A stretch of 35,274 bases of DNA from an uncultured Alistipes sp. (GTDB taxonomy: Bacteria; Bacteroidota; Bacteroidia; Bacteroidales; Rikenellaceae): assembly GCA_947178025.1 (NCBI GenBank), contig CAMWWU010000004.1, forward strand, positions 1-35,274. Direction: 5' to 3'. Positions 10,587-27,837 of this stretch are shown piece after piece. The translations under genes and the position numbers were made by a program. Each line of letters starts with the position of its first letter. Positions within the stretch are counted from its first letter, which is position 1. The notes beneath the pieces are model-generated. The model was not told where the DNA came from. It did no database searches and saw only the letters and a list, made by a program, of their open reading frames with translations.

Positions 10587-11168
10587 TCAGTGCGCCGGCA
10601 TTTCGATGCGCGGCATTTCGGGGCGCTCGTGATCCGAATAGAGGAGCACGTGCTCCCGTATGAAGTCCGCGAATGCGCGGGCTTCGTCGTTTTCGAGGGG
10701 TGCCGGACGGCTCAGCAGCACGAGTCGGTGCGGCTCGAAGGGGCGCCGGTAGGAGGGGTGCAGGTAGTGCCAGGGATTGGCTGCGAAGCCCGAGCGTTCG
10801 TAGAAGTGCAGCCGCCGGACGGAGATCTCGTCCTCGGGCGGGTCGATCTCCAGCACGAGGCGTCCGAACCGTTCGCCGAGCGCTTCGAGGGCCCGGCTGC
10901 CGATCTGCTGTCCGCGCAGGGCCGGATCGACGGCCAGGTGCTCGACGTAGCGGAACGGGCCCGCCTGCCAGTGGAACAGCAGGCCGGCCATGCGGTCGCC
11001 GAGCCGGATGGCGTCGGCCTCGAAGAGCGGGTCGGCGAGGGCTTCGGCATAGCGCTCCTCGTGCCAGCGCTCCTTGGCCGGGAAGGCGTTCCGGTAGATC
11101 GTCATCGCCTCGGCCCAACCCGGGTCGTCGCACGAAGCGAAGGGAACGAGTGTCGGGGCGGGGATCAT
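10587..11168 (-). CDS. GNAT-family N-acetyltransferase
   Basis: Start at 11168 (MIPAPTLVPFASCDD), acetyl-CoA motif VEHLAVDPALRGQQIGSRALEAL, LEIDPPEDEISVRRLHFYERSGF; ATGA overlap with lacI stop. Confidence 0.82.
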   Translation of the reverse strand: MIPAPTLVPFASCDDPGWAEAMTIYRNAFPAKERWHEERYAEALADPLFEADAIRLGDRMAGLLFHWQAGPFRYVEHLAVDPALRGQQIGSRALEALGERFGRLVLEIDPPEDEISVRRLHFYERSGFAANPWHYLHPSYRRPFEPHRLVLLSRPAPLENDEARAFADFIREHVLLYSDHERPEMPRIEMPAH

Positions 11169-12193
11169 TCGGCGGTCGTTTTGCGGGGTGCGCGCACCGA
11201 GTCGCGCACGGTGATGGTCGGCGGCAGCAGGATCTGCGAATGGTTCGCGCGGTTGTCCCGGATCATTTGCAGGAGCATCTTGATGGCCAGAATCCCCATC
11301 TCTTCGATCGGCTGATTCACGCGCGTGATGGCCGGCGAGAGGAAATCGAGGTAGGTATAGTTGTCGAACGATATGACCGACAGATCGTCGGGGATCCGCA
11401 GTCCGGCCTCTTCGGCGGCCTTCATCGTGCCGAGCAGAATCGTGTTGCTCAGGGCGAAGATCGCCGTGGGCGGCTCGGGTTCGGCGAGGGCGAGCTTGGC
11501 CTCGATGTAGCCGTTCTGGATCGAGAAGTCGCTGCCCGAAACGACGGCCCGGTCGTCGAGTCCGAAGTCGTGCAGCGCTTCGCGGTATCCCCGCACGCGT
11601 TCGGACGAGGTGATCGACGCCGACGGCCCCTGGATGCAGCGGATGTTGCGGTGGCCGTAGTCGAGCAGCATCCGGGTGGCGTTGTAGCTGCCCTGAAAGT
11701 TGTCCGTCGAGACGTAGGGGAGCGACGATTCGGGGAAATAACGGTCGATCAGTACGATGGGCGTGTGCTGCGCGACCTCTTCCAGCTGCTCGGGCGTGTT
11801 GCTGCACGGCACGACGATCACGCCGTCGATGTTGCGGCTCAACAGCGAATTGAGCCCTTCCGACTCCTCTTTCTCGTTCTCCATCGAGTCGATCAGGATC
11901 ACGGTGTAGTCGTGCAGCCGCGCTTCGTGGATGATGACATTGGCGATGTTGGCGAAGAAGGGGTTGTCGATGCTCGGAACGAGCAGCCCGACCGTATTGG
12001 TGCGTTTCGTGCGGAGACTTTGTGCCGTCAGGTTGGGCGTGTAGTTGCACTTTTGCGCAAATTCTTTGATTTTGCGCACGGTCTGCTCGCTGATCCGGTA
12101 CTTCTGCGCTTTCCCGTTCAGCACGCGCGATATGGTCGATATGGAGAAACCGGTTCGCTCGGCGATGGAAATCAGGGTCTCTTTTTGCGTCAT
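11165..12193 (-). CDS. LacI-family transcriptional regulator
   Basis: HTH SIAERTGFSISTISRVLNGKAQKYRISEQTVRKI; periplasmic-binding-like domain NTVGLLVPSIDNPFFANIANVI. Start at 12193; the ORF-track start at 12337 is upstream of the promoter. Confidence 0.95.
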   Translation of the reverse strand: MTQKETLISIAERTGFSISTISRVLNGKAQKYRISEQTVRKIKEFAQKCNYTPNLTAQSLRTKRTNTVGLLVPSIDNPFFANIANVIIHEARLHDYTVILIDSMENEKEESEGLNSLLSRNIDGVIVVPCSNTPEQLEEVAQHTPIVLIDRYFPESSLPYVSTDNFQGSYNATRMLLDYGHRNIRCIQGPSASITSSERVRGYREALHDFGLDDRAVVSGSDFSIQNGYIEAKLALAEPEPPTAIFALSNTILLGTMKAAEEAGLRIPDDLSVISFDNYTYLDFLSPAITRVNQPIEEMGILAIKMLLQMIRDNRANHSQILLPPTITVRDSVRAPRKTTAE

Positions 12194-12250: not shown

Positions 12251-12281
12251 TTGGAAGAAAGCCGTATTTATATTATGTTTG
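12251..12281 (+). promoter_or_regulatory. Promoter of the ribokinase/SusCD operon
   Basis: TTG (12251-12253) - 20 bp - TATGTTTG (12274-12281); overlaps the palindromic operator. Confidence 0.72.
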
Positions 12282-12298
12282 CACAAACGTTTGCGCAA
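12279..12298. promoter_or_regulatory. LacI-type operator palindrome TTGCACAAAC|GTTTGCGCAA
   Basis: 20-bp inverted repeat, 9 of 10 positions symmetric, central CG, between lacI and the ribokinase operon. Confidence 0.85.
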
Positions 12299-12365: not shown

Positions 12366-13298
12366 ATGAACCCCCGTAAAATTGTCGTCATCGGCAGCAG
12401 CAACACCGACATGGTGATTAAATCCGAGCGGCTGCCCGCTCCCGGCGAAACCGTCCTGGGCGGTACTTTTCTGATGAATCCCGGCGGAAAGGGTGCCAAT
12501 CAGGCCGTCGCAGCCGCCCGGCTGGGCGGCGATGTGACCTTTGTCTGCAAAACCGGAACCGACCTCTTCGCCCAACGTGCCGAGGAGGGTTACCGGCGCG
12601 AGGGTATCGACACCGCATTCGTATTGCGCAATGCCGACGTGCCGTCGGGCGTGGCGCTCATCACCGTCGATGCCGAAGGCGAAAACTGCATCGTCGTCGC
12701 GCCGGGTGCCAATGATACGCTTTCGCCCGCCGACATCGAGCAGGCGCGTGCCGTGATCGAATCCGCCGATCTGGTCGTCATGCAGCTTGAGATTCCGCTC
12801 GATACCGTTCTGGCGGCCGCACGCATCGCCCGCGCCGCGGGAGCGCGCGTGCTGCTCAACCCTGCGCCTGCGCCCGCCCGCCCGCTCTCCGACGAGTTGC
12901 TCTCGCTGGTCGACCTGCTGATTCCCAATCGCACCGAGGCCGAGCTGCTCTCGGGAGTCCGTATCGCGGAGTGGGAGGATGCCGAATCGGCGGCCGTCCG
13001 GCTTCATGAACGCGGCGTCGGCAGCGTGCTCATTACGCTCGGCTCGCGCGGGGCGCTCTGTTTCGACGGCATACGCCATGAGCGCATCGCATCCTGTCCG
13101 GTCAAATCCGTCGACTCGACCGGTGCGGGCGATACGTTCTGCGGTGCGCTCTGCGTGGCGCTCTCCGAAGGCCGCGACCTCGTGGCGGCGGCCCGTTTCG
13201 CTTCGCTCGTGGCGTCGATTTCGGTGACTCGGGTCGGAGCGCAGCAGGCGATCCCCTATCGGACGGAGGTGGATCGGGCGCTCGCTGCGCAATCCTGA
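12366..13298 (+). CDS. rbsK: Ribokinase (PfkB family)
   Basis: IVVIGSSNTDMVIKSERLPAPGETVLGGTFLMNPGGKGANQAVAAARLGG and DSTGAGDTFCGAL. Confidence 0.92.
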   Translation: MNPRKIVVIGSSNTDMVIKSERLPAPGETVLGGTFLMNPGGKGANQAVAAARLGGDVTFVCKTGTDLFAQRAEEGYRREGIDTAFVLRNADVPSGVALITVDAEGENCIVVAPGANDTLSPADIEQARAVIESADLVVMQLEIPLDTVLAAARIARAAGARVLLNPAPAPARPLSDELLSLVDLLIPNRTEAELLSGVRIAEWEDAESAAVRLHERGVGSVLITLGSRGALCFDGIRHERIASCPVKSVDSTGAGDTFCGALCVALSEGRDLVAAARFASLVASISVTRVGAQQAIPYRTEVDRALAAQS

Positions 13299-13342
13299 CC
13301 GTAAGGACGAACCTTGAAAAACTATACCTAAAACCCTATTGT

Positions 13343-14518
13343 ATGAGAAACCTGAACTTAAAGGTTCTCGTCTGCGCGCTCGCTTTTGCTTCGGCGGGAT
13401 GCAGCGACGAGAGCGAACCGAATGCGGTGCCTGTCGCGCCTATTCTGAAGGAAGTGGTCATGCCGGCAGAGAGCAGGGCGCTTCCCGGAACCACGGTGAC
13501 GATCTCCGGAAAGGGATTCGATGTCTCCGACAAGATTTTCTGCGAGTCGCTCGCGGAGGAGCTCGATTTCGTACCCGAAATCGAGCATGTAAACGACCAG
13601 GGCATCTCGTTCGCCATCCCGGCGGAGGCCGCTGGCCCCTATGCCGTGACGGTCGAGCGCGCCGGTTTGACGAGCCGTCTGCCCGGCGAGCTGAAAGTGC
13701 CTTATGTCATCGTCATCGAAGGGCTGTCCGTGCCTTCGGGCAACGTGGTGCGCGGCGCCGTACTCGCTGTCCGGGGCAGCGGTTTCGAAGCCGGCGACGT
13801 GGCGAACTTCTCGTCTGACGGATATCCGGGCGGTACGATCGTCGCGACGGACGTGAACGTTACGGACTCCGGTATCGAAGTGAAGATTCCCGAGTCGTGC
13901 TACGGTGTCAATACGCTGACGATCGTGCGCGGCACGCGCCAGGCCAACCTCGGCCGGGTGAATGTCTCCGTTTCGGTCGGCGACGAGGTCGGCGGCGGTA
14001 TCGTCTTCTACACCTCCGACAAGGGGCTGCACGGGCTGATCGTCAAACGGACCAACACCGGCACGCCGACCCAGCAGTGGGGGCCGACGTCGCTGCACGG
14101 AGGTACGAAAAAGGATCTTTACACCGGTAAGGAGAATACGCGCCTTTGCGTGGCCAAGATGGCCGATTTCCATCAGCAGTTCGCTACCTGGCCCGCGGAC
14201 AAGCTGTCGGCCGCCGAGCTGTGCGCCGCCGAGAGCGAAACGGTCGACGGCGTGGTTTACGACGACTGGTTCCTCCCCTCGCAGCAGGAGCTGGCGGAAC
14301 TCTTCAAGGCTCGGGCTGCCGGCCTTTTCTCGGGCGGCAAGTCTGCGGCCGATCTTCCGGCCAACAACTACTGGACGTCGACCGAGGGCGACAACGATGC
14401 CAACGCTCCGATCTGGAGCGCCTACTACGTGAATTTCTACGAAACGGAGTCGCTCGTGTCGAGCAACAGCGACAAGGAGGCTTGGCAGATCGGTATTCGC
14501 GCCATCCGTCAATTTTAG
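13343..14518 (+). CDS. Putative surface lipoprotein with IPT/TIG-like repeats and C-terminal DUF1566/lectin-like domain (candidate surface glycan-binding protein)
   Basis: Lipobox FASAGCSDES; two Ig-like segments (GTTVTISGKGFDVSD, GAVLAVRGSGFEAGD); DUF1566-like tail WFLPSQQELAELF...NNYWTSTEGDN...IRAIRQF; immediately upstream of susC. Confidence 0.75.
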   Translation: MRNLNLKVLVCALAFASAGCSDESEPNAVPVAPILKEVVMPAESRALPGTTVTISGKGFDVSDKIFCESLAEELDFVPEIEHVNDQGISFAIPAEAAGPYAVTVERAGLTSRLPGELKVPYVIVIEGLSVPSGNVVRGAVLAVRGSGFEAGDVANFSSDGYPGGTIVATDVNVTDSGIEVKIPESCYGVNTLTIVRGTRQANLGRVNVSVSVGDEVGGGIVFYTSDKGLHGLIVKRTNTGTPTQQWGPTSLHGGTKKDLYTGKENTRLCVAKMADFHQQFATWPADKLSAAELCAAESETVDGVVYDDWFLPSQQELAELFKARAAGLFSGGKSAADLPANNYWTSTEGDNDANAPIWSAYYVNFYETESLVSSNSDKEAWQIGIRAIRQF

Positions 14519-14542
14519 CGAACCTACTAACCGAATAAAACG

Positions 14543-17482
14543 ATGAAAAAGATACTTTTCGTGCTGACAGTCTTGCTGTTGGCCGTTACCCCCCCCCTCC
14601 GGGCCCAGAATCGGGTCGAGGGCGTGGTGATGAATGAGAATTCCGATGCGCTCGCCGGCGTCGCGGTGGTTGTCAAGGGCACGCAGCGCGGTGTGTCGAC
14701 CGATGCCCGCGGGCACTTCGCCATCGAGGCGAAGAGGGGCGAGTCGCTGCTGTTCTCCTACATGGGAATGATCGATCAGACGGTCCCCGTGGCTTCGGGC
14801 CGTATGGAGGTCCGCATGGTTTCCGACAACTTCAACCTCGACGACGTGGTGGTGATCGGTTACGGCTCGGCCAAGAAGAGCGACCTGACGGGCTCCGTGG
14901 CGTCGGTCAAGCCCGATGCGCTCAAGAACGGCAAGGTCGGCATGGTTTCGTCGGCCCTTCAGGGTGCGGCGGCCGGTGTGCAGGTGACGCAGGGGAATAT
15001 GAAGCCCGGTGCCGATGCCAGCATTCTCATCCGCGGCGCGGGCTCGATCAATGCCGGAACCGAGCCGCTCTACATCATCGACGGCGTACCCGTGCAGGGC
15101 GGTCTTCAGGATCTTTCGGCCGTCGACATCCAGTCGATCGAGATCCTCAAGGACGCGTCGTCGGCTTCGATCTACGGTTCGCGCGGTTCGAACGGCGTGG
15201 TGCTCGTGACCACGAAAAACGGTACGGCCGGCAAGACCCGCGTTTCGTTCAATGCGACGGCCGGCGTGCAGAAGCTGATGAACAAGCAGGACATGATGAC
15301 TGCTCAGCAGTACTACGATCTGATCGAATCCTCGGGTCAGAACTACACCTGGTCGTCGGCCGAGCTGCGCCATCTGAGCCGCGGCGAATCGACCGACTGG
15401 CAGGATGCCGTGACGCAGGACGGCAGCTTCCAGAACTACAGCTTCTCCGTGTCGGGCGGCGGCAAGTCGACGACCCACTATCTCGGTCTGGACTACTACG
15501 ATCAGGAGGGTACGGTCAAGAATTCGTCGTTCAACAAGTTCACCGTCCGTTACAACATGGACGCCACGCTCAACAAGTGGCTGCGCTCGGGTGTCCGCGT
15601 GAATGTCGTCGAGTCGAAGCTGATGAACATCAACGAGGAGTCCGATTCGGGCTACGGCACGATGCACAGCGCCATTACGGCCCAGCCGACGGCGCCGATC
15701 TACAACGACGACGGCAGCTATTTCGACGGCTTCCTCAATACGAAAGCCAACCCCGTGGCCATCGTCGACCTGCTCGACAAGGCGACCAAGCGCACCCGTG
15801 CCGTCGGGTCGTTCTACCTCGAACTGGAGCCCGTAGAGAATCTCCGCATCCGTTCGGACAATGCCGGCGAGCTGGTCTTCTTCAAAGTCGACGAGTATGA
15901 GGACGGCCGCATGGGCCAGCACTATACGGCCGACGGCCACGCCCGCATCATGTCCAACAAGAAGAGCTACTGGCAGACCGAGAACACCGTTACCTACGAT
16001 CTGATCCGCGAGCGTCACAAACTGACGGTCATGGGCGGCTTCTCGGCTTCGCAGGTCCGCTACGAGGAGGTGACCGCCGACTCGAAGGGGCTCGATCCCA
16101 CCACGAAGTACAACAACCTGGGCGGTGCCGCCACGCACGGCCCCAACGGCTCCTACGCTTCCGGTTCGTCGCTCGTGTCATTCTACGGCCGTGCCACCTA
16201 CAATTTCGACGAGCGCTACCTGCTGACGCTGACCATGCGCGGCGACGGCTCCTCGCGTTTCGCCCCCGGGCACCGCTGGGGCTACTTCCCCTCGCTGGCC
16301 GCCGCATGGCGTGTGTCGGAGGAGCCTTTCATGAAGAGCGCCGCATGGGTGGACAACCTCAAGGTGCGCATCAGCGCCGGTATGCTCGGCAACCAGAACA
16401 TCGGCGACTACTCCCATGCCGCACAGATCAGCCAGGGCGGTTCGGGACTCGACTACGTGTTCGGCGGAAACCTCGCTTCGGGAGCCGTCTATACGACGAT
16501 CAGCAATCCCGAGCTGACGTGGGAGAAGGCCAAGCAGCTCGATCTCGGTATCGACTTCGGGTTCCTCGGCAACCGCATCGCCGGTACGATCGAAACCTAC
16601 TACAAGCGGACGACCGATCTGCTGTGGACGGTTCCGCTGCCTTTGGAGTCGGGCTACCGCAGCTCGATGACCAACGTGGGCGTCCTCGACAACAAGGGCG
16701 TCGAGTTTACGCTCAATACGGTGAATGTCAATATGCGCAACTTCCAGTGGACTACGTCTTTCAATATCTCCTACAACCGCAACGAGATCGTCGAGCTTTA
16801 CGACGGCAAGCAGGATGTCAACAAGTCGCTCTTCGTGGGCCACTCGCTGGGCGAGTTCTACCTGCTGCACTCCGCTGGCATTTGGCAGATTCCCGATGCC
16901 GAGCAGGCTGCCGCATACGGAGCCTATCCGGGCGACCGCAAGATCTACGATCGCGACGGGAATAACGTCATCAACGGCGAGGACCGCATGTTCGCCGGCC
17001 AGAGCACCCCGACGTGGTTCGGCGGTCTGACCAACACGTTCCGCTTCTACGGTGTCGACCTCACGCTCTTCATGAACTTCGCGGGCGGTCACAAGATCAA
17101 CAACTCGCTGCTGCGTTCGCAGAACTCCTACAATGTCTGGGGCAACATGAGCAAGGACTACTACGAGGGTTATTGGCGCATCGACCGTCCGAGCGACGTC
17201 TATCCGGCTCCGCGCGTGGGCAGCGCCTATGCCAACGGCGATGGTACGGACGCCAACCTGCAGGATGGCAAATACCTACGCATCAAGAACCTCGAAATCG
17301 GCTATACGCTGCCGAAGCGCTGGACCGACGCGATCCGCGCCAGCAGCGTCCGCCTCTTCTTCTCGGTGCAGAACCTGGCCACGTTCACCGGCTACACGGG
17401 CTATGACGTGGAGGCTTGGGACAACACCAATCCTTATCCCGGATCGCGCAGCTACATCGGCGGGATCTCCGTCAATTTCTAA
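14543..17482 (+). CDS. SusC/RagA-family TonB-dependent outer-membrane transporter
   Basis: Carboxypeptidase-regulatory-like N-domain, DDVVVIGYGSAKKSDLTGSV, IRGAGSINAGTEPLYIIDGVP, IEILKDASSASIYGSRGSNGVVLVTTK, C-terminal beta-barrel. Confidence 0.97.
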   Translation: MKKILFVLTVLLLAVTPPLRAQNRVEGVVMNENSDALAGVAVVVKGTQRGVSTDARGHFAIEAKRGESLLFSYMGMIDQTVPVASGRMEVRMVSDNFNLDDVVVIGYGSAKKSDLTGSVASVKPDALKNGKVGMVSSALQGAAAGVQVTQGNMKPGADASILIRGAGSINAGTEPLYIIDGVPVQGGLQDLSAVDIQSIEILKDASSASIYGSRGSNGVVLVTTKNGTAGKTRVSFNATAGVQKLMNKQDMMTAQQYYDLIESSGQNYTWSSAELRHLSRGESTDWQDAVTQDGSFQNYSFSVSGGGKSTTHYLGLDYYDQEGTVKNSSFNKFTVRYNMDATLNKWLRSGVRVNVVESKLMNINEESDSGYGTMHSAITAQPTAPIYNDDGSYFDGFLNTKANPVAIVDLLDKATKRTRAVGSFYLELEPVENLRIRSDNAGELVFFKVDEYEDGRMGQHYTADGHARIMSNKKSYWQTENTVTYDLIRERHKLTVMGGFSASQVRYEEVTADSKGLDPTTKYNNLGGAATHGPNGSYASGSSLVSFYGRATYNFDERYLLTLTMRGDGSSRFAPGHRWGYFPSLAAAWRVSEEPFMKSAAWVDNLKVRISAGMLGNQNIGDYSHAAQISQGGSGLDYVFGGNLASGAVYTTISNPELTWEKAKQLDLGIDFGFLGNRIAGTIETYYKRTTDLLWTVPLPLESGYRSSMTNVGVLDNKGVEFTLNTVNVNMRNFQWTTSFNISYNRNEIVELYDGKQDVNKSLFVGHSLGEFYLLHSAGIWQIPDAEQAAAYGAYPGDRKIYDRDGNNVINGEDRMFAGQSTPTWFGGLTNTFRFYGVDLTLFMNFAGGHKINNSLLRSQNSYNVWGNMSKDYYEGYWRIDRPSDVYPAPRVGSAYANGDGTDANLQDGKYLRIKNLEIGYTLPKRWTDAIRASSVRLFFSVQNLATFTGYTGYDVEAWDNTNPYPGSRSYIGGISVNF
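14589..14597. repeat. C9 homopolymer tract in the susC signal-peptide region
   Basis: gtta-ccccccccc-tccggg; encodes T-P-P-L in MKKILFVLTVLLLAVTPPLRAQ. Confidence 0.9.
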
Positions 17483-17504
17483 AACGTAAATCAAGACAAG
17501 AATC

Positions 17505-18929
17505 ATGAAAAAACTGATATATGCTGCGGCTTGTCTGCTGACCGTCGTCGCCGTCTCCTGCGAAAGTTTCCTCGACGAAACGCCCAAGAGCACGCTGACC
17601 CCGCAGAACTCTTTCAAGGACGAGGCAGACTGGAACAAGACCCTGACGGCGGCCTACGGATCGTTGCAGAACATCACTGCCGGCTTCGAGGCCAAGTATG
17701 CCATCACGCTGGGCGAGTTCGGCACCGACGAGGTGATCCCCTTCGACCTGGGGTGGGCCGCCTATGCCGAGCTGCACTACTATACGTTCTCGGCGCAGCA
17801 CGCCTTTCTGGACAACCACTACGGGCACTGCTACGATGGCGTCAAGCGATGCAATATCGTGATCGATATGCCGGCCGATGCCGCCGTGAGCAGCTCCGCC
17901 CGCACGATGATGATCGCACAGGCCCGGTTCCTGCGTGCGCTCTTCTATTTCGACCTGGTGCGCATGTACGGCGGCGTGCCCCTCTGGACCTCGGGTTCGG
18001 TGGATCGCGACCAAATCATGAAGCCGCGCGCCACGGCCGACGAGGTGTACGACCTGATCGTCTCGGATCTGCGCGCCGCGGCCTCCGTGCTGCCCGCGAA
18101 GTGGTCGGAGAACTCCGACAAGGGCCGCGCCACCTCCTATGCCGCGAACGCCATCCTGGGCCGCGTGCTGTTGCAGTGGGGGCGTCCTGCCGAGGCGCTC
18201 GCCGCCCTCGACCTGGTTTACGGCAAGTTCCGTCTTTACGACGACTACTCCTTCATCTTCTCGCCCGCGCATAAGAACGAGGAGATCGAGAATATCTTCG
18301 AGGTGCAGTTCCGCCACTCGGGCAAGTGGGGCGAGGAGGGTTCGCTCCAACACAGCTACTGGGGCCCGCGCGGGGTCGGCGGCCCGACCGCTTTCGGCGG
18401 CTGGGGCGGCTTCGGAGCTTCGCAGTACCTCTACGACAGCTATGCCGACAACGACCGTCGCAAGCAGGCCTTCTTCTGGACCGAGTTCGGAGGCATCCGT
18501 CAGGATCCGCCGTGCATCAGGAAGTTCTGGGACGAGAACTACGGCAACGAGATCGAGAACGACGACCTGAATTTCATCTACATGCGTTATGCCGACGTGT
18601 TGCTGATGCGTGCCGAGGCGCTGAATGCCGTGAACGACGCGACGAATGCCAAATACGACTGTCTGAACGAGGTGCGCCGTCGTGCGGGAGTCGCCGAGGT
18701 CTTTTCGGAGACCAACGAGCGGTTCGCTGAGATCCTGCTCGAAGAGCGTATGAAGGAGCTCTGCTGCGAGCATCTGCGCCGCTTCGACCTGATCCGTTTC
18801 GGCAAGCTCGCGCAGCAGGTGCGTCTTGCGCACGGTGTCGAGGTGCGCGATCACCACGTGCTTTATCCCATTCCGCAGAGTGCGATGGACGCCAACGATG
18901 CGATTACGGAGAACAATCCGGGTTATTGA
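17505..18929 (+). CDS. SusD/RagB-family nutrient-binding lipoprotein
   Basis: Lipobox VAVSCESFLDETP, YDGVKRCNIVID, AQARFLRALFYFDLVRMYGGVPL, RYADVLLMRAEALN, ERMKELCCEHLRRFDLIRFG. Confidence 0.96.
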   Translation: MKKLIYAAACLLTVVAVSCESFLDETPKSTLTPQNSFKDEADWNKTLTAAYGSLQNITAGFEAKYAITLGEFGTDEVIPFDLGWAAYAELHYYTFSAQHAFLDNHYGHCYDGVKRCNIVIDMPADAAVSSSARTMMIAQARFLRALFYFDLVRMYGGVPLWTSGSVDRDQIMKPRATADEVYDLIVSDLRAAASVLPAKWSENSDKGRATSYAANAILGRVLLQWGRPAEALAALDLVYGKFRLYDDYSFIFSPAHKNEEIENIFEVQFRHSGKWGEEGSLQHSYWGPRGVGGPTAFGGWGGFGASQYLYDSYADNDRRKQAFFWTEFGGIRQDPPCIRKFWDENYGNEIENDDLNFIYMRYADVLLMRAEALNAVNDATNAKYDCLNEVRRRAGVAEVFSETNERFAEILLEERMKELCCEHLRRFDLIRFGKLAQQVRLAHGVEVRDHHVLYPIPQSAMDANDAITENNPGY

Positions 18930-18955
18930 TCTGAAAAAAATATTATCTGTAGCAT

Positions 18956-20578
18956 ATGAAAACGACATTTCGATTTGCCTGCGCCCTGTTGTTCGTCGCA
19001 GCGGCCGGATGCGAAAAAGAGGGCGGTCAGCGCCTGGCCGATGTCGAACTCGGTCGCACGACGGTGGAGAACGGTGTGGTGACGGTGGTGCCGACCGAAT
19101 ACTATCAGGCTTTCCGCAACCCGATGAAGGGGCTGCGCGAGTTCTTCGGTCCGGGATACGACAAGAAACGCGATGAATACCCCTATCCCTACGGTTCGAT
19201 CATCAAGGAGTACATGCAGTGGAACATGATGGAGGATGTCGAGTCGGATGGCGTGGACAAGGTGATCGCCTACAGCGACCATCGCTGGGAGGGCGTCGAG
19301 GATATGAACGTCAAGGTGATTCCGCGTCCGTTCATCATCTGGATGGAGCCCTACGAGGGCGGATACCCGAAGAACACCTACACGAACCATCCCGACGATC
19401 TGAACGGCTGGCACTGGCCTTCGGACTTCCCGATGGAGGTGCGTTCGGCCGACGACAATACCCCTTCGACAGGCGGTTACTTCGATCCGCGGTTTCAGGA
19501 TCGCATGAAGAAGCTCGTTGCCAAACTGGGCGAGGCGTGGGACAACGATCCGCGCGTGGCCTATGTCGAGATGGGGCTCATCGGCGAGTGGGGCGAGCAT
19601 CACGATCCCAACGTTACGACCGTATGGCTGCCCCACACGCAGTCGTTCCATGTGGCCAACCGCACCTGGATTCCGGGTATCGAGAAGACCCTGGGCGATG
19701 CGTTCCGCGACGCTTTCAAGAACAAGAAGGTGATGGTCCGCTACGCTTACGAGTTCGAGGACTACGACTTCGGCATCTACTGGGATTCGTGGGCTATCGA
19801 CGAGGAGCTGGAGCGAGGTTACAATGCCATGGTCAAGCGCGGCGACTATTGGCGCGATCAGGTCGTGGGCGGCGAGATCACCTGGAACTGGGGCTCGCTG
19901 ATGGCCAACGGCTACAAGAGCTTCGAGGATTGCGTGGCCGACACCGGAACCCGTGCCCTGGTGCTGGAGCAGATCCGCACGCTGCACTGCAACCACCTGG
20001 GCGGCATCACGTGGGCCAACTTCAAGGATCAGCAGTTCCAGACCAATGCCGCTACGATACAGAAGGCGCTCGGCTATCGTTTCGTGATCCGGCAGTTCAG
20101 CTATCCGACGCGCATCGAGCGCGGCGTGCCGTTCGAGGTGAAACTCGACGTGGTGAACACGGGTTCTTCGCCCTTCTATTACGACTGGCCCGTGGAGGTG
20201 GCGCTGCTCGATGCCGAAACGCATGAAAAGGTGTGGGGTGCGACGCTCGACGACGTACATGTCTCGCAGTGGATGCCCGGCGACCGGTGGGACAAGGCCA
20301 AGAACTGCTATGCGGTGCCGGCGGAGGTGAACGAGGTGGCCGGCACGCTGACCCTCGATGAGGATCTGGCTCCCGGCAAGTACATCGTGTCGGTCGCCGT
20401 ACTCGACCCGGCGGGCATGCTCCCCTCGCTGCGCTTCGCGGCCATGAACTACTTTACGGGAGGCCGCCATCCGATGGGTTACGTCGGCGTGGGGGCTGAG
20501 AGCGACGAGTATGCGCTGACCTACGGTTTCGACGATATCCAGGCCGATAAGACGCTGCACTATGTCGTCGAGAAATAG
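18956..20578 (+). CDS. DUF4832-type putative glycoside hydrolase lipoprotein, copy 1
   Basis: Lipobox VAAAGCEKEGG; FRNPMKGLREFF, YVEMGLIGEWGEHHDP, KVMVRYAYEFEDYDFGIYWDSW, GGEITWNWGS, C-terminal Ig-like NTGSSPFYYDWPVEVALLD. Resembles the DUF4874/DUF4832 architecture. Confidence 0.75.
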   Translation: MKTTFRFACALLFVAAAGCEKEGGQRLADVELGRTTVENGVVTVVPTEYYQAFRNPMKGLREFFGPGYDKKRDEYPYPYGSIIKEYMQWNMMEDVESDGVDKVIAYSDHRWEGVEDMNVKVIPRPFIIWMEPYEGGYPKNTYTNHPDDLNGWHWPSDFPMEVRSADDNTPSTGGYFDPRFQDRMKKLVAKLGEAWDNDPRVAYVEMGLIGEWGEHHDPNVTTVWLPHTQSFHVANRTWIPGIEKTLGDAFRDAFKNKKVMVRYAYEFEDYDFGIYWDSWAIDEELERGYNAMVKRGDYWRDQVVGGEITWNWGSLMANGYKSFEDCVADTGTRALVLEQIRTLHCNHLGGITWANFKDQQFQTNAATIQKALGYRFVIRQFSYPTRIERGVPFEVKLDVVNTGSSPFYYDWPVEVALLDAETHEKVWGATLDDVHVSQWMPGDRWDKAKNCYAVPAEVNEVAGTLTLDEDLAPGKYIVSVAVLDPAGMLPSLRFAAMNYFTGGRHPMGYVGVGAESDEYALTYGFDDIQADKTLHYVVEK

Positions 20579-22199
20579 GTTGGCGGCGGCATTCGCACTG
20601 TGCGCCTTCGTTTGCGCAGGCTGTGCGGGGCGGGGGACTCCCGCCCGCTACACGGCCGCGTGCGACGAAGGCCGCGTGCGTGTCCGGATGGTCGAATACG
20701 AACCCGCCCTGCGCAATCCGATGAAAGGATTCCGGGAGTTCTTCATGATCGGCACTGACCGACGGCGTGCGGAGTATCCCTATCCCTACGGTTCGCTCGT
20801 CAAGGAGTACATGCAGTGGAACATGCTCGAAAACGTCGAGTCGGACGGCGTAGAGAAGATCGTCGCCTACAGCGACCGCCGCTGGCAGGGCGTCGAGGAG
20901 CAGAATGTGAAGGTTATTCCGCGCGTGCTGCTCGTGTGGGTCGAGCCGTGGCACGGAGGATGGGCCAAGGACGAGGCCAATCCCGACGATCTGAACGGCT
21001 GGCACTGGCCCTCGGACCTACCCGGCGAGACGGGGCCCTACAAGCAGATTCCGGGTTCGGTCGGCGCCTATGTCGAGCCGCAGGATTCGCTGACGACGAT
21101 CCGGGGCGGATATTTCGATCCGTCGTTTCCGGAGCGTGTGAGGAGGCTCGTCGCCAAGCTGGGCGAAGCGTGGGACGACGATCCGCGCGTGGCTTATGTC
21201 GAGATGGGCATCGTCGGCGAATGGGGCGAACACCATGACCCCGACCTGTCGACCCTCTTCGCGCCGCACGACGAGCCGCGGCATGTCGACGGCCGCACGT
21301 GGATTCCGGGCATGCAGCAGGTGCTGGGCGATGCGTTCCGCGATGCTTTCAGGAACAAGAAAGTGATGGTGCGTTATGCCTACGAGTTCGAGGATTACGA
21401 CTTCGGCATCTACTGGGACTCGTGGTCTCAGCCCGAGGAGCAGCAGCGCGGGTACGACGCGATGTTGCGCCGCGGCGACTACTGGCGCACGCAGCCCGTG
21501 GGCGGCGAGATCACCTGGAACTGGGGATCGCTGGCCCGCTATCCGAGTTTCGAGGCGGTGGTGGCCGACGACACGACCCGGCGTTTCGTCGTGGAGCAGA
21601 TCCGCAACCTGCACTGCAACCATCTGGGAGGCATCACATGGGCCGACTTCGACGATCCGGTATTCGCACGGAATGCCGCCGAGCTGCAAAAGGCGATGGG
21701 GTATCGTTTCGTGCTGGACGAGGCGGACTATCCCTGCCGGATCGAGGCGGGCGAGCCGTTCGGGGTGACCTTCTCGCTGCGCAATACGGGCTCTTCGCCC
21801 TTCTATTACGACTGGCCTGCGGAGGTGGCGCTGCTCGATGCCGCGACGCACGAAAAGGTGTGGGGCGCGACGCTCGACGACGTGCGCATCTCGCAGTGGA
21901 TGCCCGGCGAGGAGTGGGATGCCGACCGACAGGCTTACCGCAAGGCCCCCGAATCGGTGACGGTGCGGGCGCAGCTCGTGGCGGAGGGTGTCGCCGCCGG
22001 ACGTTATATCCTGGCACTGGGAGTTCTCGATCCTGCCTGCGGCCGTCCGACGCTGCGTTTCGCCAATACCAACTATTTTACGGGCGGCTATCATCCGCTC
22101 GGGTATGTCGGAGTCGGCGTGCCGGAGAGCGATCCCGCGCTCGATCCCGCATGTTTCGACGATTTGCAAAGCGATACTACATTGAATTACAAAATCTAA
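20562..22199 (+). CDS. DUF4832-type putative glycoside hydrolase lipoprotein, copy 2 (tandem paralog)
   Basis: Same motifs as copy 1 (LRNPMKGFREFF, YVEMGIVGEWGEHHDPD, GGEITWNWGS, NTGSSPFYYDWPAEVALLD); lipobox VCAGCAGRG; ORF overlaps copy 1 by 17 nt. Confidence 0.75.
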   Translation: MSSRNRLAAAFALCAFVCAGCAGRGTPARYTAACDEGRVRVRMVEYEPALRNPMKGFREFFMIGTDRRRAEYPYPYGSLVKEYMQWNMLENVESDGVEKIVAYSDRRWQGVEEQNVKVIPRVLLVWVEPWHGGWAKDEANPDDLNGWHWPSDLPGETGPYKQIPGSVGAYVEPQDSLTTIRGGYFDPSFPERVRRLVAKLGEAWDDDPRVAYVEMGIVGEWGEHHDPDLSTLFAPHDEPRHVDGRTWIPGMQQVLGDAFRDAFRNKKVMVRYAYEFEDYDFGIYWDSWSQPEEQQRGYDAMLRRGDYWRTQPVGGEITWNWGSLARYPSFEAVVADDTTRRFVVEQIRNLHCNHLGGITWADFDDPVFARNAAELQKAMGYRFVLDEADYPCRIEAGEPFGVTFSLRNTGSSPFYYDWPAEVALLDAATHEKVWGATLDDVRISQWMPGEEWDADRQAYRKAPESVTVRAQLVAEGVAAGRYILALGVLDPACGRPTLRFANTNYFTGGYHPLGYVGVGVPESDPALDPACFDDLQSDTTLNYKI

Positions 22200-22209
22200 A
22201 GCTTTTTCC

Positions 22210-23220
22210 ATGAAACGACTTCCGATTCTTCTGTTCGTGTTGTTGCTGGCCGTTTCCTGCGGCCGTCGCACGGCCGAGGAGCACCCCGTCCGAATTATTT
22301 TCGATACGGATCTGGGCAACGATATCGATGACGTGCTGGCGCTCGAAATGCTGCTCAACTACGAGCGGGAGGGCCGGGCCGAACTGCTGGGCGTGACGCT
22401 CTGCAAGGCCAATCCCCATACCGCCGAGTTCGCCGACGGCTATCTGCGGGCCGCCGGTCGCGGCGACATGCCGCTGGGCTTCGCCCATCGGGGCGTGACG
22501 CCCGAGGACGGGAGCTATCTGCTGCCGACGCTCGGTGCGTCGTTCGACGGGCAGCCGCTGCTCAGTCCCGAGCGCACGGCCGACGAGCTGCCCGAAGGTT
22601 ATGTGCTGCTGCGGCAGCTGCTGGCGCAGCAGCCCGATGCGTCGGTCGTACTCGTCGCCGTGGGGCCGTTGACCAACATCGGCAATCTGCTCGCGAGCGA
22701 GGCTGACGAGATCTCACCCCTCGCGGGGCGTGAACTGGTGGCGGCCAAAGTGAAGCGCGTGGTGACGATGGCCGGCTTGTTCGGCGACGAATTCGATTTC
22801 CCGGAGTGGAATGTCATGTGCGACGTCGAGGCGGCGCAGCGGACCTTCCATCTCTGCCCCGTGATGCTGACGACGACCGGCTGGGAGGTCGGCAACCGCT
22901 TGCTCTATCCGCACGAGAGCATCCTGAACGACTTCGGCGATCCCGAGGCCAGTCCCCTGGCGGTGGCTTACTGCCACTATATGGAGATGCCCTACGATCG
23001 GCAGACGTGGGATCTGACCGCCGTGCTGGAGGCCGTGGAGCCCGGCGTGTGGTTCGACCGCTCGCCCCGGGGCCGGATCCGGATCGCTGATGACGGTCGG
23101 AGTACGCTCGACGTGGCGGCGGAGGGCGTGCAGGATTATCTGATCATTCCGCAGGAACGCACGGCGGCGGCTCTGGAGGCGCTCGTCGCCCGGACTGCGG
23201 GTAAAACGCCGGAGCAATGA
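22210..23220 (+). CDS. Nucleoside-hydrolase-like (IUNH superfamily) lipoprotein
   Basis: Lipobox LLAVSCGRR, IIFDTDLGNDIDDVLALEMLLNY, VAVGPLTNIGNLL, WNVMCDVEAAQ, TWDLTAVLEAV. Confidence 0.88.
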   Translation: MKRLPILLFVLLLAVSCGRRTAEEHPVRIIFDTDLGNDIDDVLALEMLLNYEREGRAELLGVTLCKANPHTAEFADGYLRAAGRGDMPLGFAHRGVTPEDGSYLLPTLGASFDGQPLLSPERTADELPEGYVLLRQLLAQQPDASVVLVAVGPLTNIGNLLASEADEISPLAGRELVAAKVKRVVTMAGLFGDEFDFPEWNVMCDVEAAQRTFHLCPVMLTTTGWEVGNRLLYPHESILNDFGDPEASPLAVAYCHYMEMPYDRQTWDLTAVLEAVEPGVWFDRSPRGRIRIADDGRSTLDVAAEGVQDYLIIPQERTAAALEALVARTAGKTPEQ

Positions 23221-25175
23221 GACGCTGGGTGATCGCACTGCTGGCGCTGGCAGCCCTGCTGCCGGCCTCGGCCGGCCGGCGGCCGCTGGCGAGTGTCCTG
23301 TCTCCCGACGGTAAAAACCGGGTGGAGGTGTCGTTCGACGGCGGGACGCTGTGTTACGAAGTATTCCGCAACGACGACCGGATTCTGGCGCCGTCGCCCC
23401 TTTCGATGAGCGTCGAAGGGCGGACGTGGGGCGCCGATGCCCGGCCTCGCAAGGTCGTGCGGCGGCGTGTGGAACGCGTAGACCGGCCGGTCGTACCCCG
23501 CAAGAGCGCCGAGCTTCGCGATGCCTATTGCGAGGCGGCGCTCCATTTCCGCGGATACCGTGTCGAGGTGCGTGCTTATGACGACGGCGTGGCTTATCGC
23601 TTCGTCGGCACGACGCCCGAAGAGGGGCGTGTCGAACGCGAGCAGGTCTGTTATCGCTTCGATGGCGATTACCCCTCGCTAACGCTGCTGACCAAGGAGT
23701 TGCAGAATTGGTTCGAGGAGGATTACACCGAGCGGAGGCTCGGGGCGCTGCCTGCCGACAGCATGTCGATCGCGCCGGTCATGGTGCGTGTCGGCCGCTA
23801 TGGGGTGCTGCTCGCCGAGGCGAATCTGTACAGCTATCCGGGCCTTTACCTGCATCCTGCGGGGCTGGGTTTCGAGGGGGTTCAGGCCGCCTATCCGAGC
23901 CGGGAGGAGTTTCGCGACGGCACGAACAAGCTCTATGCCGTCGAGCGCGAACCGTGGCTCGTGAAGTGCGGGCTCGATCGGGCTTTCCCGTGGCGCGTGA
24001 CGGGGATCTTCGACGATGACGCCTCGATGCTCGCCAGCGACCTGGTTTACCTGCTCTCCGAGAAGAGCGACCGCGACTATGCGTGGGTTCGGCCGGGCAA
24101 GGTGCTTTGGGACTGGTGGAATCATAACAATATCTACGGTGTCGATTTCGAGGCCGGCATCAATACGGCGACTTACCTCTATATGGTCGATTTCGCTGCG
24201 GAGCACGGCATCGAGTATCTGCTCATCGACGAGGGGTGGTCGGGACGCGACGACCTGCTGACGCTCGCTCCCGGCGTGGATATTCCTGCCGTCTGCCGCC
24301 ATGCGGCCGAAAAAGGCGTCGGCATCCTGCTGTGGGCCAAGTGGATCAATGTGGACCGGCAGCTCGACGAGGCATTCGAACGGATGGCTTCGTGGGGTGT
24401 GCGCGGCGTGAAGATCGACTTCATGGACCGCAACGACGCCCGAATGGTCGACTTCTACGAGCGGGTGGCCCGCAAGGCCGAGGAGTGTCGGCTGCTGATC
24501 GATTTCCACGGCTCCTATCCCAACGAGGGAATGCGGGCGAAGTATCCGCTGCTGATGACCCGCGAGGGAGTGGTCGGCCTGGAGTATAACAAGTGGAGCG
24601 AGCGTGCGACGCCGCGCCACGATCTGATCATTCCGTTCCTGCGCATGTGGGTCGGCCCGATGGACTACACGCCGGGCGCCATGCTCAATGCGCAGCCCGA
24701 GTCGTTCCGGATCAGCCATGTCGAGCCGATGAGCCAGGGTACGCGGGCCCATCAGCTGGCCATGTACGTCGTCTACGAGAGTCCGTTGCAGATGCTTTCG
24801 GACAGTCCGACGAAGTACCTCGAAAACCCCGAGTCGTTCGCATTTCTGAAGCAGGTGCCGACCGTCTGGGACGAGACCCGTCCGCTGTTCGGCACCGTCG
24901 GAAGCAACGTCGGCGTGGCACGTCGCAGCGGCGACATGTGGTTCGTCGGCGTGATGGGCGGCAGCGAGGCGCAGTCGCTCGCGGTCGATCTTTCGTTCCT
25001 CGGCGGGGGAGTGTGGGAGATGACCCAGTGGGCCGACGGTGCGAATGCCGCGACGAACGGCAAGGACTGCCGCCGCAGCGCGCTGCGGGTGACTGCTGCC
25101 GACCGGATTCCCGTGGCCCTGGCGCCCGGTGGCGGTTTTGCGGCGGTGATCCGCCGGGGAAGCGGCGCCGAATGA
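23217..25175 (+). CDS. GH97-family glycoside hydrolase, predicted retaining (alpha-galactosidase-like) subgroup
   Basis: N-terminal beta-sandwich (SPDGKNRVEVSFDGGTLCYEV), WDWWNHNNIYGVDF, YLLIDEGW, GVKIDFMDRND, DFHGSYPNEGMRAKYPLLMTREGVVGLEYNKW; ATGA overlap with the upstream gene. Confidence 0.9.
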   Translation: MRRWVIALLALAALLPASAGRRPLASVLSPDGKNRVEVSFDGGTLCYEVFRNDDRILAPSPLSMSVEGRTWGADARPRKVVRRRVERVDRPVVPRKSAELRDAYCEAALHFRGYRVEVRAYDDGVAYRFVGTTPEEGRVEREQVCYRFDGDYPSLTLLTKELQNWFEEDYTERRLGALPADSMSIAPVMVRVGRYGVLLAEANLYSYPGLYLHPAGLGFEGVQAAYPSREEFRDGTNKLYAVEREPWLVKCGLDRAFPWRVTGIFDDDASMLASDLVYLLSEKSDRDYAWVRPGKVLWDWWNHNNIYGVDFEAGINTATYLYMVDFAAEHGIEYLLIDEGWSGRDDLLTLAPGVDIPAVCRHAAEKGVGILLWAKWINVDRQLDEAFERMASWGVRGVKIDFMDRNDARMVDFYERVARKAEECRLLIDFHGSYPNEGMRAKYPLLMTREGVVGLEYNKWSERATPRHDLIIPFLRMWVGPMDYTPGAMLNAQPESFRISHVEPMSQGTRAHQLAMYVVYESPLQMLSDSPTKYLENPESFAFLKQVPTVWDETRPLFGTVGSNVGVARRSGDMWFVGVMGGSEAQSLAVDLSFLGGGVWEMTQWADGANAATNGKDCRRSALRVTAADRIPVALAPGGGFAAVIRRGSGAE

Positions 25176-25203
25176 ACCCGGCCGGCCTCCGGAGCCGTCG
25201 CCG

Positions 25204-25235
25204 CTCCTTCCCCGAAGAGCTTCGGGAGGCGCCGG
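25204..25235 (+). other. GC-rich hairpin element upstream of the GRP-type sugar transporter
   Basis: CTCCTTCCCCGAAGAGCTTCGGGAGGCGCCGG; perfect inverted repeat CCCGAA-GAGC-TTCGGG (25211-25226); related to 27838..27866. Confidence 0.6.
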
Positions 25236-25281
25236 CGCACGATCGGGACGATCGAATCGAATACTAACCAAAATCTGAATT

Positions 25282-26289
25282 ATGTATATTGTAGGCAACT
25301 ATTTTACGGCGGTCGTATTCTGTCTGATTACGATGCTGTGCTGGGGTTCGTGGGGCAATACGCAGAAACTCGCTTCGAAGAGCTGGCGTTACGAACTCTT
25401 CTATTGGGATTACGTGATCGGCATGGTGCTCTTCGCGCTGGCGCTGGGTCTGACGATGGGCAGCACGGGCGATGCGGGCCGTTCGTTCCTCGCCGATCTG
25501 GGGCAGGCCGAATGGGCAGCCGCGGGATGCGTGCTGCTGGGCGGCGTGATCTTCAACGCCTCGAACATCCTGCTCTCGGCCTCGGTGTCGCTCGCGGGCA
25601 TGGCCGTGGCCTTCCCGCTGGGCGTGGGTATCGCGCTGGTGTTGGGCGTTGTGGTCAACTATATCGGCGCGCCTTCGGGAAACGCATCGGCGCTCTTCGC
25701 GGGCGTGGCTCTCATCGTGCTGGCCATCGTCTGCAACGGCATCGCCTCGGGGCGTATGTCGCAGGGCGAGGAGGATCGCCGGAACAACCGCAAAGGGTTG
25801 TGGCTCGCGCTGGCGGCCGGCGTGCTGATGTCGCTCTTCTACCGCTTCGTGGTGATGGGCATGGATGTCGAGAACTTCCAGTCGCCCGCCGCAGGGATGC
25901 TGACCCCCTATTCGGCGATCTTCGTCTTCTCGCTCGGCGTGCTGGCCAGCAATCTCCTCTTCAATACGCTGGTCATGCGCCGTCCGTTCGTCGGCGAGCC
26001 CGTGAGCTACCGTGCCTACTTCGGCGGATCGCTGCCGACGCACCTCGTAGGCATGCTGGGCGGTGCCGTGTGGTGTCTCGGTACGGCCTTCAGCTATATC
26101 GCTTCGGGCGAGGCCGGGCCGGCTATCTCCTATGCGCTCGGACAGGGCGCTCCGATGGTCGCCGCCGTGTGGGGAGTCTTCGTCTGGAAGGAGTTTCGGG
26201 GGGCGTCGATGCTTGTGAAGCGGCTGCTGGCCCTCATGTTCGTGCTCTTCGTGGGCGGGCTGGCACTCATTATCTCCGCCGGCAACTGA
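25282..26289 (+). CDS. GRP (glucose/ribose porter)/RhaT-like sugar transporter
   Basis: ~10 TM segments, start MYIVGNYFTAVVFCLITMLCWGSWGNTQKLASKSWRYELFYWDYVIG, SYALGQGAPMVAAVWGVFVWKEF; in operon with ribokinase. Confidence 0.85.
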   Translation: MYIVGNYFTAVVFCLITMLCWGSWGNTQKLASKSWRYELFYWDYVIGMVLFALALGLTMGSTGDAGRSFLADLGQAEWAAAGCVLLGGVIFNASNILLSASVSLAGMAVAFPLGVGIALVLGVVVNYIGAPSGNASALFAGVALIVLAIVCNGIASGRMSQGEEDRRNNRKGLWLALAAGVLMSLFYRFVVMGMDVENFQSPAAGMLTPYSAIFVFSLGVLASNLLFNTLVMRRPFVGEPVSYRAYFGGSLPTHLVGMLGGAVWCLGTAFSYIASGEAGPAISYALGQGAPMVAAVWGVFVWKEFRGASMLVKRLLALMFVLFVGGLALIISAGN

Positions 26290-26305
26290 CGCCGTATTCC
26301 GCAAA

Positions 26306-26344
26306 GTGAAAGGGCTGCCCCGACGGGCAGCCCTTTTCTTTCAC
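26306..26344. terminator. Bidirectional intrinsic terminator between the ribose-type and xylose operons
   Basis: GTGAAAGGGCTGCCC-cgac-GGGCAGCCCTTTTCTTTCAC; stem flanked by A and T tracts in the gap between converging genes. Confidence 0.9.
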
Positions 26345-26356: not shown

Positions 26357-27790
26357 TTATTTCGCGGCGTTCGAGCGCCACAGGGCGGACATCTCCTCCA
26401 GCGTCTTGCCCTTCGTTTCGGGCACCCAGCGCCAGACGAAGATCGCCGAGGCGAGCGACATCAGCGCATAGAGGCAGTAGGTGCCGCCGATGCTCCAGGC
26501 GCTCAGCGAGGGGAACGTGGCCGAGACGAGGAAGTTCGAGATCCACTGCGCCGCGACGGCGATGGCCACGGCCTGCGAACGGATCGTGTTGGGGAAGATT
26601 TCGGCGATGAGCACCCAGCAGATCGGGCCCCACGACATCATGAACGAAGCCGTATAGATGATGATGAAGACGAGGGCCGCCAGGCCGATCGAGTCGGTGA
26701 ACGAGAGTGCGGCCAGCGCGACCATACCGATCATCATGCCGGCCGAACCGATGATGAGCAGCGGCTTGCGGCCCACCTTGTCGACGGTGAAGATCGCCAC
26801 GACGGTGAAGAGGATGTTGACGATGCCCATCACGACCGTCTGCACCATCGATGCGTCGCCCGTGGCGCCCATGTTCTCGAAGATGCGCGGTGCGTAGTAG
26901 AGCACGACGTTGATGCCGACGGCCTGCTGGAAGAACGAGAGCAGCACGCCGATCGCGATCACGGCGACGCCGTAGGCGAAGAGCCGTTCGCGCTTCTCGT
27001 GCACCGTGGCTTTGATGTCGGCCAGGATCGAGCGGGCCTCCTCGCTGCCGTTGATGCGTGCGAGGATCGAGAAGGCACGGTCGTCGCGGCCCCTCAGGGC
27101 GAGGAAGCGCGGCGTCTCGGGGACGAGCAGTACGAGCAGTCCGAATGCGCCGGCCGGGAAGGCCTCGCTGACGAACATCCGGCGCCAGCCGATGGCGTTC
27201 ATGGCGCTTTGGATGGCTTCGGAGGTGTCGCCCAGCGAATTGCGGATCAGGTAGTTGACGAAGTATACGACCAGCATGCCGAAGATGATGGCGAACTGAT
27301 TGCACGATACGAGCGTGCCGCGGATGCGTGCGGGCGAGATCTCGGCGATGTACATCGGGCAGACGGCCGAGGCCAGTCCGACGCCGATGCCGCCCAGGAT
27401 GCGGTAGAGGTTGAAGACGACGAGCAGCGTCTTCGACGCTTCGCCGTAGGGCAGGATGCCGCTTTCGGGGCACCACGAGCCGACGGCCGAGATGAAGAAC
27501 ATGATCGCCGCGGCGATGAGCGAGCGTTTGCGGCCCAGGCGCGACGCCATCAGGCCCGAGATCGCGCCGCCGATGACGCAGCCGAGCAGGGCGCTCGAAG
27601 CCGTGAATCCGTGCCACCCCGAGGTGTAGAGGTCGCCCAGACCGTTGCGGAAGAAGTTTTCGAGGGCTTTCTCGGCTCCCGATACCACGGCGGTGTCGTA
27701 GCCGAAGAGCAGTCCGCCGATGATCGCCACCAGAACGATGGAGAAGAGGTAGAGACGGCTGCCCTGTGTGTTGGTTTGTGTCGAAGTCAT
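26357..27790 (-). CDS. xylE: MFS sugar porter, xylose:H+ symporter-like
   Basis: GGLLFGYDTAVVSGA, ASRLGRKRSL, RILGGIGVGLASAVCPMYIAEISPARIRGTLVSCNQF, VPETPRFL, VPETKGKTLEEM; adjacent to xylAB. Confidence 0.92.
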   Translation of the reverse strand: MTSTQTNTQGSRLYLFSIVLVAIIGGLLFGYDTAVVSGAEKALENFFRNGLGDLYTSGWHGFTASSALLGCVIGGAISGLMASRLGRKRSLIAAAIMFFISAVGSWCPESGILPYGEASKTLLVVFNLYRILGGIGVGLASAVCPMYIAEISPARIRGTLVSCNQFAIIFGMLVVYFVNYLIRNSLGDTSEAIQSAMNAIGWRRMFVSEAFPAGAFGLLVLLVPETPRFLALRGRDDRAFSILARINGSEEARSILADIKATVHEKRERLFAYGVAVIAIGVLLSFFQQAVGINVVLYYAPRIFENMGATGDASMVQTVVMGIVNILFTVVAIFTVDKVGRKPLLIIGSAGMMIGMVALAALSFTDSIGLAALVFIIIYTASFMMSWGPICWVLIAEIFPNTIRSQAVAIAVAAQWISNFLVSATFPSLSAWSIGGTYCLYALMSLASAIFVWRWVPETKGKTLEEMSALWRSNAAK

Positions 27791-27813
27791 AGGTTGTCAG
27801 GTTGGTTGGGTTG

Positions 27814-27829
27814 CCGGCCTTCGGGCCGG
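27814..27829. other. Hairpin CCGGCC-TTCG-GGCCGG in the xylA-xylE spacer
   Basis: Perfect 6-bp stem with tetraloop, flanked by A5 on plus. Confidence 0.65.
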
Positions 27830-27837
27830 AAAAATAC

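Follow-up and report, generated by a model that had tools for sequence, protein, structure and literature searches.

A putative ribose-scavenging locus of the rus type with paired DUF4832 proteins in an uncultured Alistipes sp.

Gene content and transcription of the locus

The stretch of DNA considered here (hereafter the window) comprises the first 35,274 nucleotides of contig CAMWWU010000004.1 from an uncultured Alistipes sp. (assembly GCA_947178025.1), a 2.2 Mb metagenome-assembled genome in which genome-wide questions were addressed by searches. It contains nine co-directional genes (12366-26289, plus strand), which probably form a ribose-scavenging polysaccharide utilization locus (PUL) of the ribose-utilization (rus) type with an exchangeable outer-membrane and enzyme front-end cassette, a reading to which we give a probability of about 0.78 from comparison of sequences. 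The original prediction, made from the DNA letters without database searches, had described nine co-directional genes with short gaps or overlaps, and profile searches of the window proteins found all nine at the coordinates it gave; its range (12366-26344) took in these genes but left out the divergent LacI gene (11165-12193, minus strand). The first gene encodes the ribokinase RbsK (12366-13298; TIGR02152, 364 bits, over the cut-off), which is the sole protein in the genome above the ribokinase cut-off. It is followed by the genes for a TIG/Lcl_C (DUF1566) lipoprotein (13343-14518; Pfam TIG, the Lcl_C match being below cut-off), a SusC/RagA TonB-dependent transporter (14543-17482; TIGR04056, 849 bits), a SusD/RagB surface lipoprotein (17505-18929; PF07980 and PF14322) and two DUF4832 proteins. 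DUF4832a is a lipoprotein and predicted clan GH-A-like glycosidase (18956-20578; PF16116 and a predicted structure), and DUF4832b (20562-22199) is its tandem paralogue, with 63% identity and the same invariant residues. Finally, the operon encodes an inosine-uridine-type nucleoside hydrolase (NH) lipoprotein (22210-23220; PF01156), a GH97 protein with a signal peptide, assigned to the retaining alpha-galactosidase subgroup (23217-25175; PF10566 plus the N- and C-terminal domains), and a RusT-like inner-membrane transporter of the GRP/RhaT/ureide-permease type (25282-26289; PF07168 and RhaT TIGR00776).

The gaps between these genes are, in order, 44, 24, 22, 26, -17, 10, -4, and 106 bp, the two negative values corresponding to the overlaps of DUF4832a with DUF4832b and of NH with GH97. 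The divergent LacI gene precedes the operon and a strong terminator follows it. This terminator, which had been predicted at 26306-26344, was recovered as an intrinsic terminator (26309-26342, plus strand) common to the operon and to a convergent major facilitator superfamily (MFS) gene; for its stem (26309-26336) and T tract together, the folding energy is -34.5 kcal/mol (z = -5.7). Internal terminators splitting the cluster, which had been named in advance as evidence against a single unit, were looked for in the intergenic gaps of the operon and no terminator-like site was found. The longest gap, the 106 bp before the transporter gene (25176-25281), was considered as a candidate and rejected, as it folds no better than its shuffles (z = 0.04). 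The reading of the cluster as a single transcription unit, headed by LacI and of the rus kind, is supported at the sequence level.

Relationship to rus loci

Canonical-type rus loci were sought by a ribokinase search in 81 genomes of the genus that hosts L012, one of the DUF4832-type loci described below, and many ribokinase loci were returned. Two loci taken as canonical type, L096 and L098, show the seven-gene order ribokinase 1 (K1), ribokinase 2 (K2), SusC, SusD, a DUF4969/DUF4978 protein with GH35/GH42-like sequence, NH and GRP transporter. The resemblance to rus that had been noted for the SusCD, ribokinase, NH and transporter genes holds against L096, to which the window proteins are 55% (ribokinase, K1), 47% (NH), and 64% (transporter) identical, SusC reaching only 28%. 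In the trees of ribokinase, NH and transporter the rus-type sequences interleave with those of the DUF4832 loci instead of standing apart. The window has the ribokinase, the SusC/SusD pair, the RusT-related GRP-type transporter and an NH of the RusNH subfamily (same clade) by which a rus locus can be recognized; the chromosomal site and flanks of rus are found for the Bacteroides DUF4832 loci, as seen in the comparison of L106 with L096 below. Two canonical features, a second ribokinase and RusR, are not in the window, which has one ribokinase and LacI, but neither is treated as defining because both vary among rus-type loci.

Distribution of DUF4832-type loci

When 84,980 species genomes were scanned with the DUF4832 pair, 30 loci were obtained. 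Of those fetched, 24 (L001-L024), from Bacteroidales, Chitinophagaceae, and Sphingobacteriaceae, share the set of ribokinase, TIG/Lcl lipoprotein, SusC, SusD, DUF4832a, DUF4832b, NH and GRP transporter; such recurrence across other Bacteroidota shows that the genes are not adjacent by mere chance. The ribokinase gene is found in each of the 22 loci with a contig long enough to include its position, and 23 of 24 loci have the transporter. GH97 occurs in 12 of the 24 and in none of those from Chitinophagaceae or Sphingobacterium, and is therefore optional. Judged by the locus, the nearest named relatives are L001 and L024, both Alistipes genomes, with proteins 63-92% identical across it. In whole-genome samples the locus is rare: among 150 genomes from the family of the window and 395 from its class, the window's own genome was in each case the single carrier; no further loci of the DUF4832 type were found in the genomes sampled at the order, family, and class levels. 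This rarity, together with the constant content in distant families, suggests from the sequences that the cluster moves as a unit by transfer. The accessory genes in or beside the sister loci (GH127, GH109-like, GH123, GH2, GH3, sulfatase, esterases, and ADP-ribosylglycohydrolase) suggest that the ribose source may be decorated differently from host to host.

Regarding the regulators, LacI stands beside eleven of these loci and a RusR-like protein beside nine; LacI is found in the window and the loci nearest to it, whereas most relatives in Bacteroides and Chitinophagaceae have the RusR-like protein. This protein, of about 550 amino acids (606-2261 in L012, and relatives), has no Pfam match, adjoins several rus-type loci as well as the nine DUF4832 loci, and its mode of sensing or activation is not evident from known domains. 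A second, very divergent NH-like lipoprotein was observed in three DUF4832 loci (L003, 14028-15305; L005, 13397-14608; L022, 14276-15505), the L003 copy deviating from the usual DxDxxxDD motif, and the host genome of the window has a second nucleoside hydrolase on contig C43.

Exchange of cassettes and regulators

The DUF4832 locus L106 and the canonical-type L096 occupy the same chromosomal site in Bacteroides. DNA homology between them runs over L106 positions 1062-4816, is then lost, and appears again at 13646-15610. The left block holds the gene upstream of RusR (80% DNA identity), RusR, K1 and K2; the right block holds NH and the transporter; and across TIG, SusC, SusD, and both DUF4832 genes there is no DNA homology. 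At the protein level, the flanks are 88% (RusR), 92% (K1), 89% (K2), 77% (NH), and 91% (transporter) identical, whereas SusC is 28% identical, SusD 26% over part of its length, and the DUF4832 proteins have no match in the L096 allele, where the unrelated DUF4978 GH35-like protein takes the glycoside hydrolase (GH) slot. Therefore, given this break in homology between constant flanks, one Bacteroides site carries alternative front ends. L097 has a third cargo and a left flank of 4.8 kb common to L106 at 90%; in total, three alternative cargo cassettes (L106, L097, and L096) are found beside a conserved RusR-K1-K2 at this site, the right NH-transporter part being common to two of them. The comparison of synteny with rus variants that the original prediction had proposed thus bears out the relationship, as regulator, kinases, NH and transporter are common to L106 and L096.

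Another example of exchange involves the regulator. L098 is 93.6% identical in DNA to L096 across 11 kb spanning all seven operon genes, but while L096 is controlled by RusR, L098 has a LacI regulator block (1323-2813) with 97% identity to the one in the ADP-ribosylglycohydrolase-type locus L103; the homologies to L103 and L096 overlap within the 5' portion of the ribokinase 1 gene. The contig makes up 4.84 Mb of a 4.8 Mb genome, so that an assembly join is unlikely. Judged from these alignments, L098 is a natural recombinant with a swapped regulator. DUF4832 cargo is likewise found under either regulator type, and these comparisons serve as a demonstration, in sequence terms, that cassette and regulator are exchanged independently among rus loci.

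The front-end proteins

An AlphaFold2 model of DUF4832a, built from an alignment of 51 homologues (pLDDT 89, pTM 0.88), gave as top Foldseek matches in the PDB the GH5 endoglycoceramidases (E 1.5e-7) and GH30 xylanases, then GH10 and GH39, with TM-scores of 0.3-0.4. The protein is accordingly predicted to be a clan GH-A-like barrel with Glu214 as candidate acid/base and Glu307 as candidate nucleophile. Glu307 is found where the seventh barrel strand ends and Glu214 shortly past the fourth, within the motifs GGEITW and GEWGEHHD. Neither residue varies among the 51 homologues, a pattern that in the model fits a retaining glycosidase. The GH slot of canonical rus also holds a GH35-like protein. 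In the four papers found that mention the domain no function of DUF4832 is described, and no functional study of a DUF4832-type locus was found in the literature searched.

In the NH, the DTDxGNDxDD motif is intact and its Asp residues are conserved with respect to the L096 NH. GH97 has as its top PDB matches 3a24 and 5e1q (retaining alpha-galactosidase, E 1e-139), and its D401, the candidate nucleophile, and E450, the candidate counterpart of the acid/base Glu of BT1871, are invariant in 12 sequences; D401 aligns with a residue that is Asp in 3a24 and Gly in 5e1q. Alpha-galactosidase specificity is not claimed for this protein, because its score of 623 bits falls below the cut-off of 800 for the NCBIfam equivalog NF053844. 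DUF4832b and NH form a single open frame in L010, L012, L016, L027, L028, and L029, and NH and GH97 in L005, and the DUF4832b-NH fusions fall in at least three separate groups of the NH tree; as they are repeatedly fused, the three proteins probably share a substrate. Some of these fusions may be products of cassette exchange, since the DUF4832b-NH junction of L106 and L012 coincides with the right boundary of the exchanged cassette. The fusion genes of L027 and L028 are not associated with any recognized SusCD pair; a TonB-dependent receptor and a nitroreductase are encoded nearby, as is an esterase-like protein.

The AlphaFold2 model of the TIG/Lcl protein (pLDDT 83) shows tandem Ig domains plus a C-terminal domain, and since its Foldseek matches include the Bacteroides ovatus surface glycan-binding protein SGBP-B (6e57, 6e9b), a role as a surface glycan-binding protein is likely for this lipoprotein. 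A crude lipobox scan, meant to tell surface from periplasmic proteins, gave TIG and DUF4832a orthologues as more acidic after the Cys than NH; this tabulation was not used as evidence.

Regulation and neighboring genes

The divergent regulator (11165-12193, its start taken at 12193, MTQKETLISIAERTG...) matches PF00356 and Peripla_BP. Its top NCBIfam score is for the RbsR model NF047341 (235 bits, under the cut-off of 382), and LacI genes 40-76% identical to it adjoin other loci of the DUF4832 type. The one good promoter that had been noted corresponds to a Bacteroidota-type -7 box (TAnnTTTG) on the plus strand, TATGTTTG (12274-12281), which overlaps a candidate LacI-type operator, TGCACAAACGTTTGCGCA (12280-12297). 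This near-palindrome is one mismatch from perfect, with a chance expectation of 0.01 sites in the window; CAAACG.TTGYGCA-like sites are found upstream of the operon in L003, L007, L022, and L024, and the same kind of -7 box lies immediately 5' of the operator in L024, L003, and L007. A second operator at 20601 was rejected as regulatory, having three mismatches and lying within the DUF4832b coding sequence. The start of a GNAT acetyltransferase gene (10587-11168, minus strand) overlaps the LacI stop, and it may be co-transcribed with LacI.

Downstream, a convergent pentose operon (26357-31486, minus strand) encodes the MFS sugar transporter, a xylose-isomerase-like protein, an FGGY kinase and an NrtR/AraR-type Nudix regulator, with a GH43 enzyme beyond it (31833-33476, plus strand). 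A tRNA-Leu (gag) (33580-33666, minus strand) adjoins a Peptidase S46 gene, which continues as far as the window's end; an Rfam search of the window gave nothing except one tRNA.

Proposed pathway and alternative explanations

From the gene set and its conservation, the swaps and fusions, the fold prediction and the operator sequence, we infer a possible substrate type, a set of activities and an order of steps. LacI would bind the operator overlapping the promoter and keep the nine genes repressed until it is released by ribose or a derivative. By analogy with their families, SusC/SusD and the TIG lipoprotein would act at the cell surface to capture an oligosaccharide or conjugate that bears ribose, and the two DUF4832 lipoproteins, as predicted GH-A-like glycosidases, would trim it. 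In the periplasm, GH97 might take off an alpha-linked, perhaps galactosyl, cap; the DUF4832 proteins and GH97 would in this way remove other sugars or open O-glycosidic bonds. The nucleoside hydrolase would then liberate ribose, which the RusT-like transporter would import and ribokinase would convert to ribose 5-phosphate. A more specific version, in which the two DUF4832 proteins represent a new family within clan GH-A that, with an NH-fold O-ribosidase and GH97, frees ribose from a glycan that is neither RNA nor nucleoside, and rus loci change their ribose source by swapping whole front-end cassettes between fixed kinase/transporter flanks, is tentative and somewhat doubtful as a whole. The galactosyl-ribosyl substrate suggested in the original prediction is a guess, GH97 being optional among the loci.

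Several points weigh against the ribose-scavenging reading. L096 and L098 were assigned to the canonical type because their genes match BT2803-2809 in number and arrangement (seven genes and RusR), and not by B. thetaiotaomicron sequence; GH97 is absent from half of the loci; and the DUF4832 glutamates were placed by motif and strand position rather than by geometry. No solved PDB chain was found that matches DUF4832 by sequence, and because the TM-scores are modest despite a significant E value, DUF4832 could be a binding or inactive barrel.

Alternatively, the locus might be a PUL for a polysaccharide other than a ribose-containing one (e.g., alpha-galactosylated or pentose-bearing), with ribokinase and the NH-like protein acting on another sugar. 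The subgroup of GH97, the accessory enzymes of the sister loci and the distant relationship of NH to solved ribonucleoside hydrolases would agree with this, but the ribokinase scores over an equivalog cut-off and is never missing where the contig reaches its position, and kinases, NH and transporter are common to rus loci at the same chromosomal site, all of which makes such a role quite improbable. A scavenger of nucleosides or nucleotide conjugates (RNA, ADP-ribose), a rus sub-case differing in substrate in which NH is the key enzyme and the DUF4832 proteins cleave or bind modified nucleosides, would account for the conservation of NH and its fusion to DUF4832b, for the ADP-ribosylglycohydrolase added in a Mariniphaga locus and for the three such enzymes in sister rus-type loci. 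However, the window operon has no nuclease, nucleotidase, or ADP-ribosylglycohydrolase, and GH97 and the clan GH-A-like enzymes point to O-glycosidic bonds, so that we regard it as unlikely.

In the original prediction, LacI control, the duplicated DUF4832 and GH97 were all taken to suggest a different substrate. The DUF4832 and GH97 part stands, in that these proteins make a different front end, whereas the LacI part fails. The idea that LacI marks a substrate specificity unlike that of RusR-controlled loci agrees with the distribution of the two regulators among the relatives, but it is already contradicted by L098, with its canonical-type cargo under a LacI block, and by the occurrence of the same DUF4832 cargo under both regulators. 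As L098 is a recombinant, LacI control is no evidence for a different substrate; LacI was rejected as a sign of one, and we consider the idea very improbable indeed.

Ribose has received little study as a nutrient of bacteria in the gut. As the comparison shows, rus loci combine a fixed kinase/hydrolase/transporter frame with a cassette for uptake and enzymes and a regulator, both of which can be exchanged, and such exchange would explain different ribose diets of closely related bacteria at one chromosomal site. In addition, DUF4832 gains a testable enzymatic role with candidate catalytic residues. What is new here is the prediction of the DUF4832 fold and residues, the fusions, and the independent exchange of cassette and regulator.

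Comparison with known systems

Several ribose-utilization systems are reportedly represented broadly in Bacteroidetes, where they have apparently diversified to access ribose from various substrates; so, at least, the abstract of the 2020 study by Glowacki et al. is said to state. The kind of system described here is thus already known, and the DUF4832 architecture may already be among the variants of that study. In a further source, which cites that study, the Rus locus is named as BT2803-2809, its regulator being RusR and its putative transporter of ribose RusT (PMC12596196). The rus locus of B. thetaiotaomicron, as represented by L096 and L098, and that of the window are alike in having ribokinase, SusC/SusD, a GH-type protein in the middle slot, NH and a GRP-type ribose transporter in one operon adjoining a regulator. 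They differ in that SusC is 28% identical and SusD barely similar, the DUF4832 pair replaces the DUF4978 GH35-like protein, the TIG/Lcl lipoprotein and GH97 are added, and there is one ribokinase instead of two and LacI instead of RusR. The ADP-ribosylglycohydrolase rus-type loci of Bacteroides (L103, L104, and L105) share with the window LacI, ribokinase, SusC/SusD and a GRP transporter 63-74% identical, but have three ADP-ribosylglycohydrolases and esterases where the window has DUF4832, NH and GH97. Regarding single proteins, the window GH97 matches the retaining alpha-galactosidase BtGH97b (BT1871, PDB 3a24) over its full length, with the nucleophile Asp and the candidate Glu conserved, although it stays under the equivalog cut-off. 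Finally, the DUF4832a model may share with clan GH-A barrels (GH5 endoglycoceramidase 5ccu, GH30 xylanase 4qaw, GH10, and GH39) the fold and the Glu near the ends of beta-4 and beta-7, and differs from them in its low TM-scores and in its sequence, which matches no solved chain.

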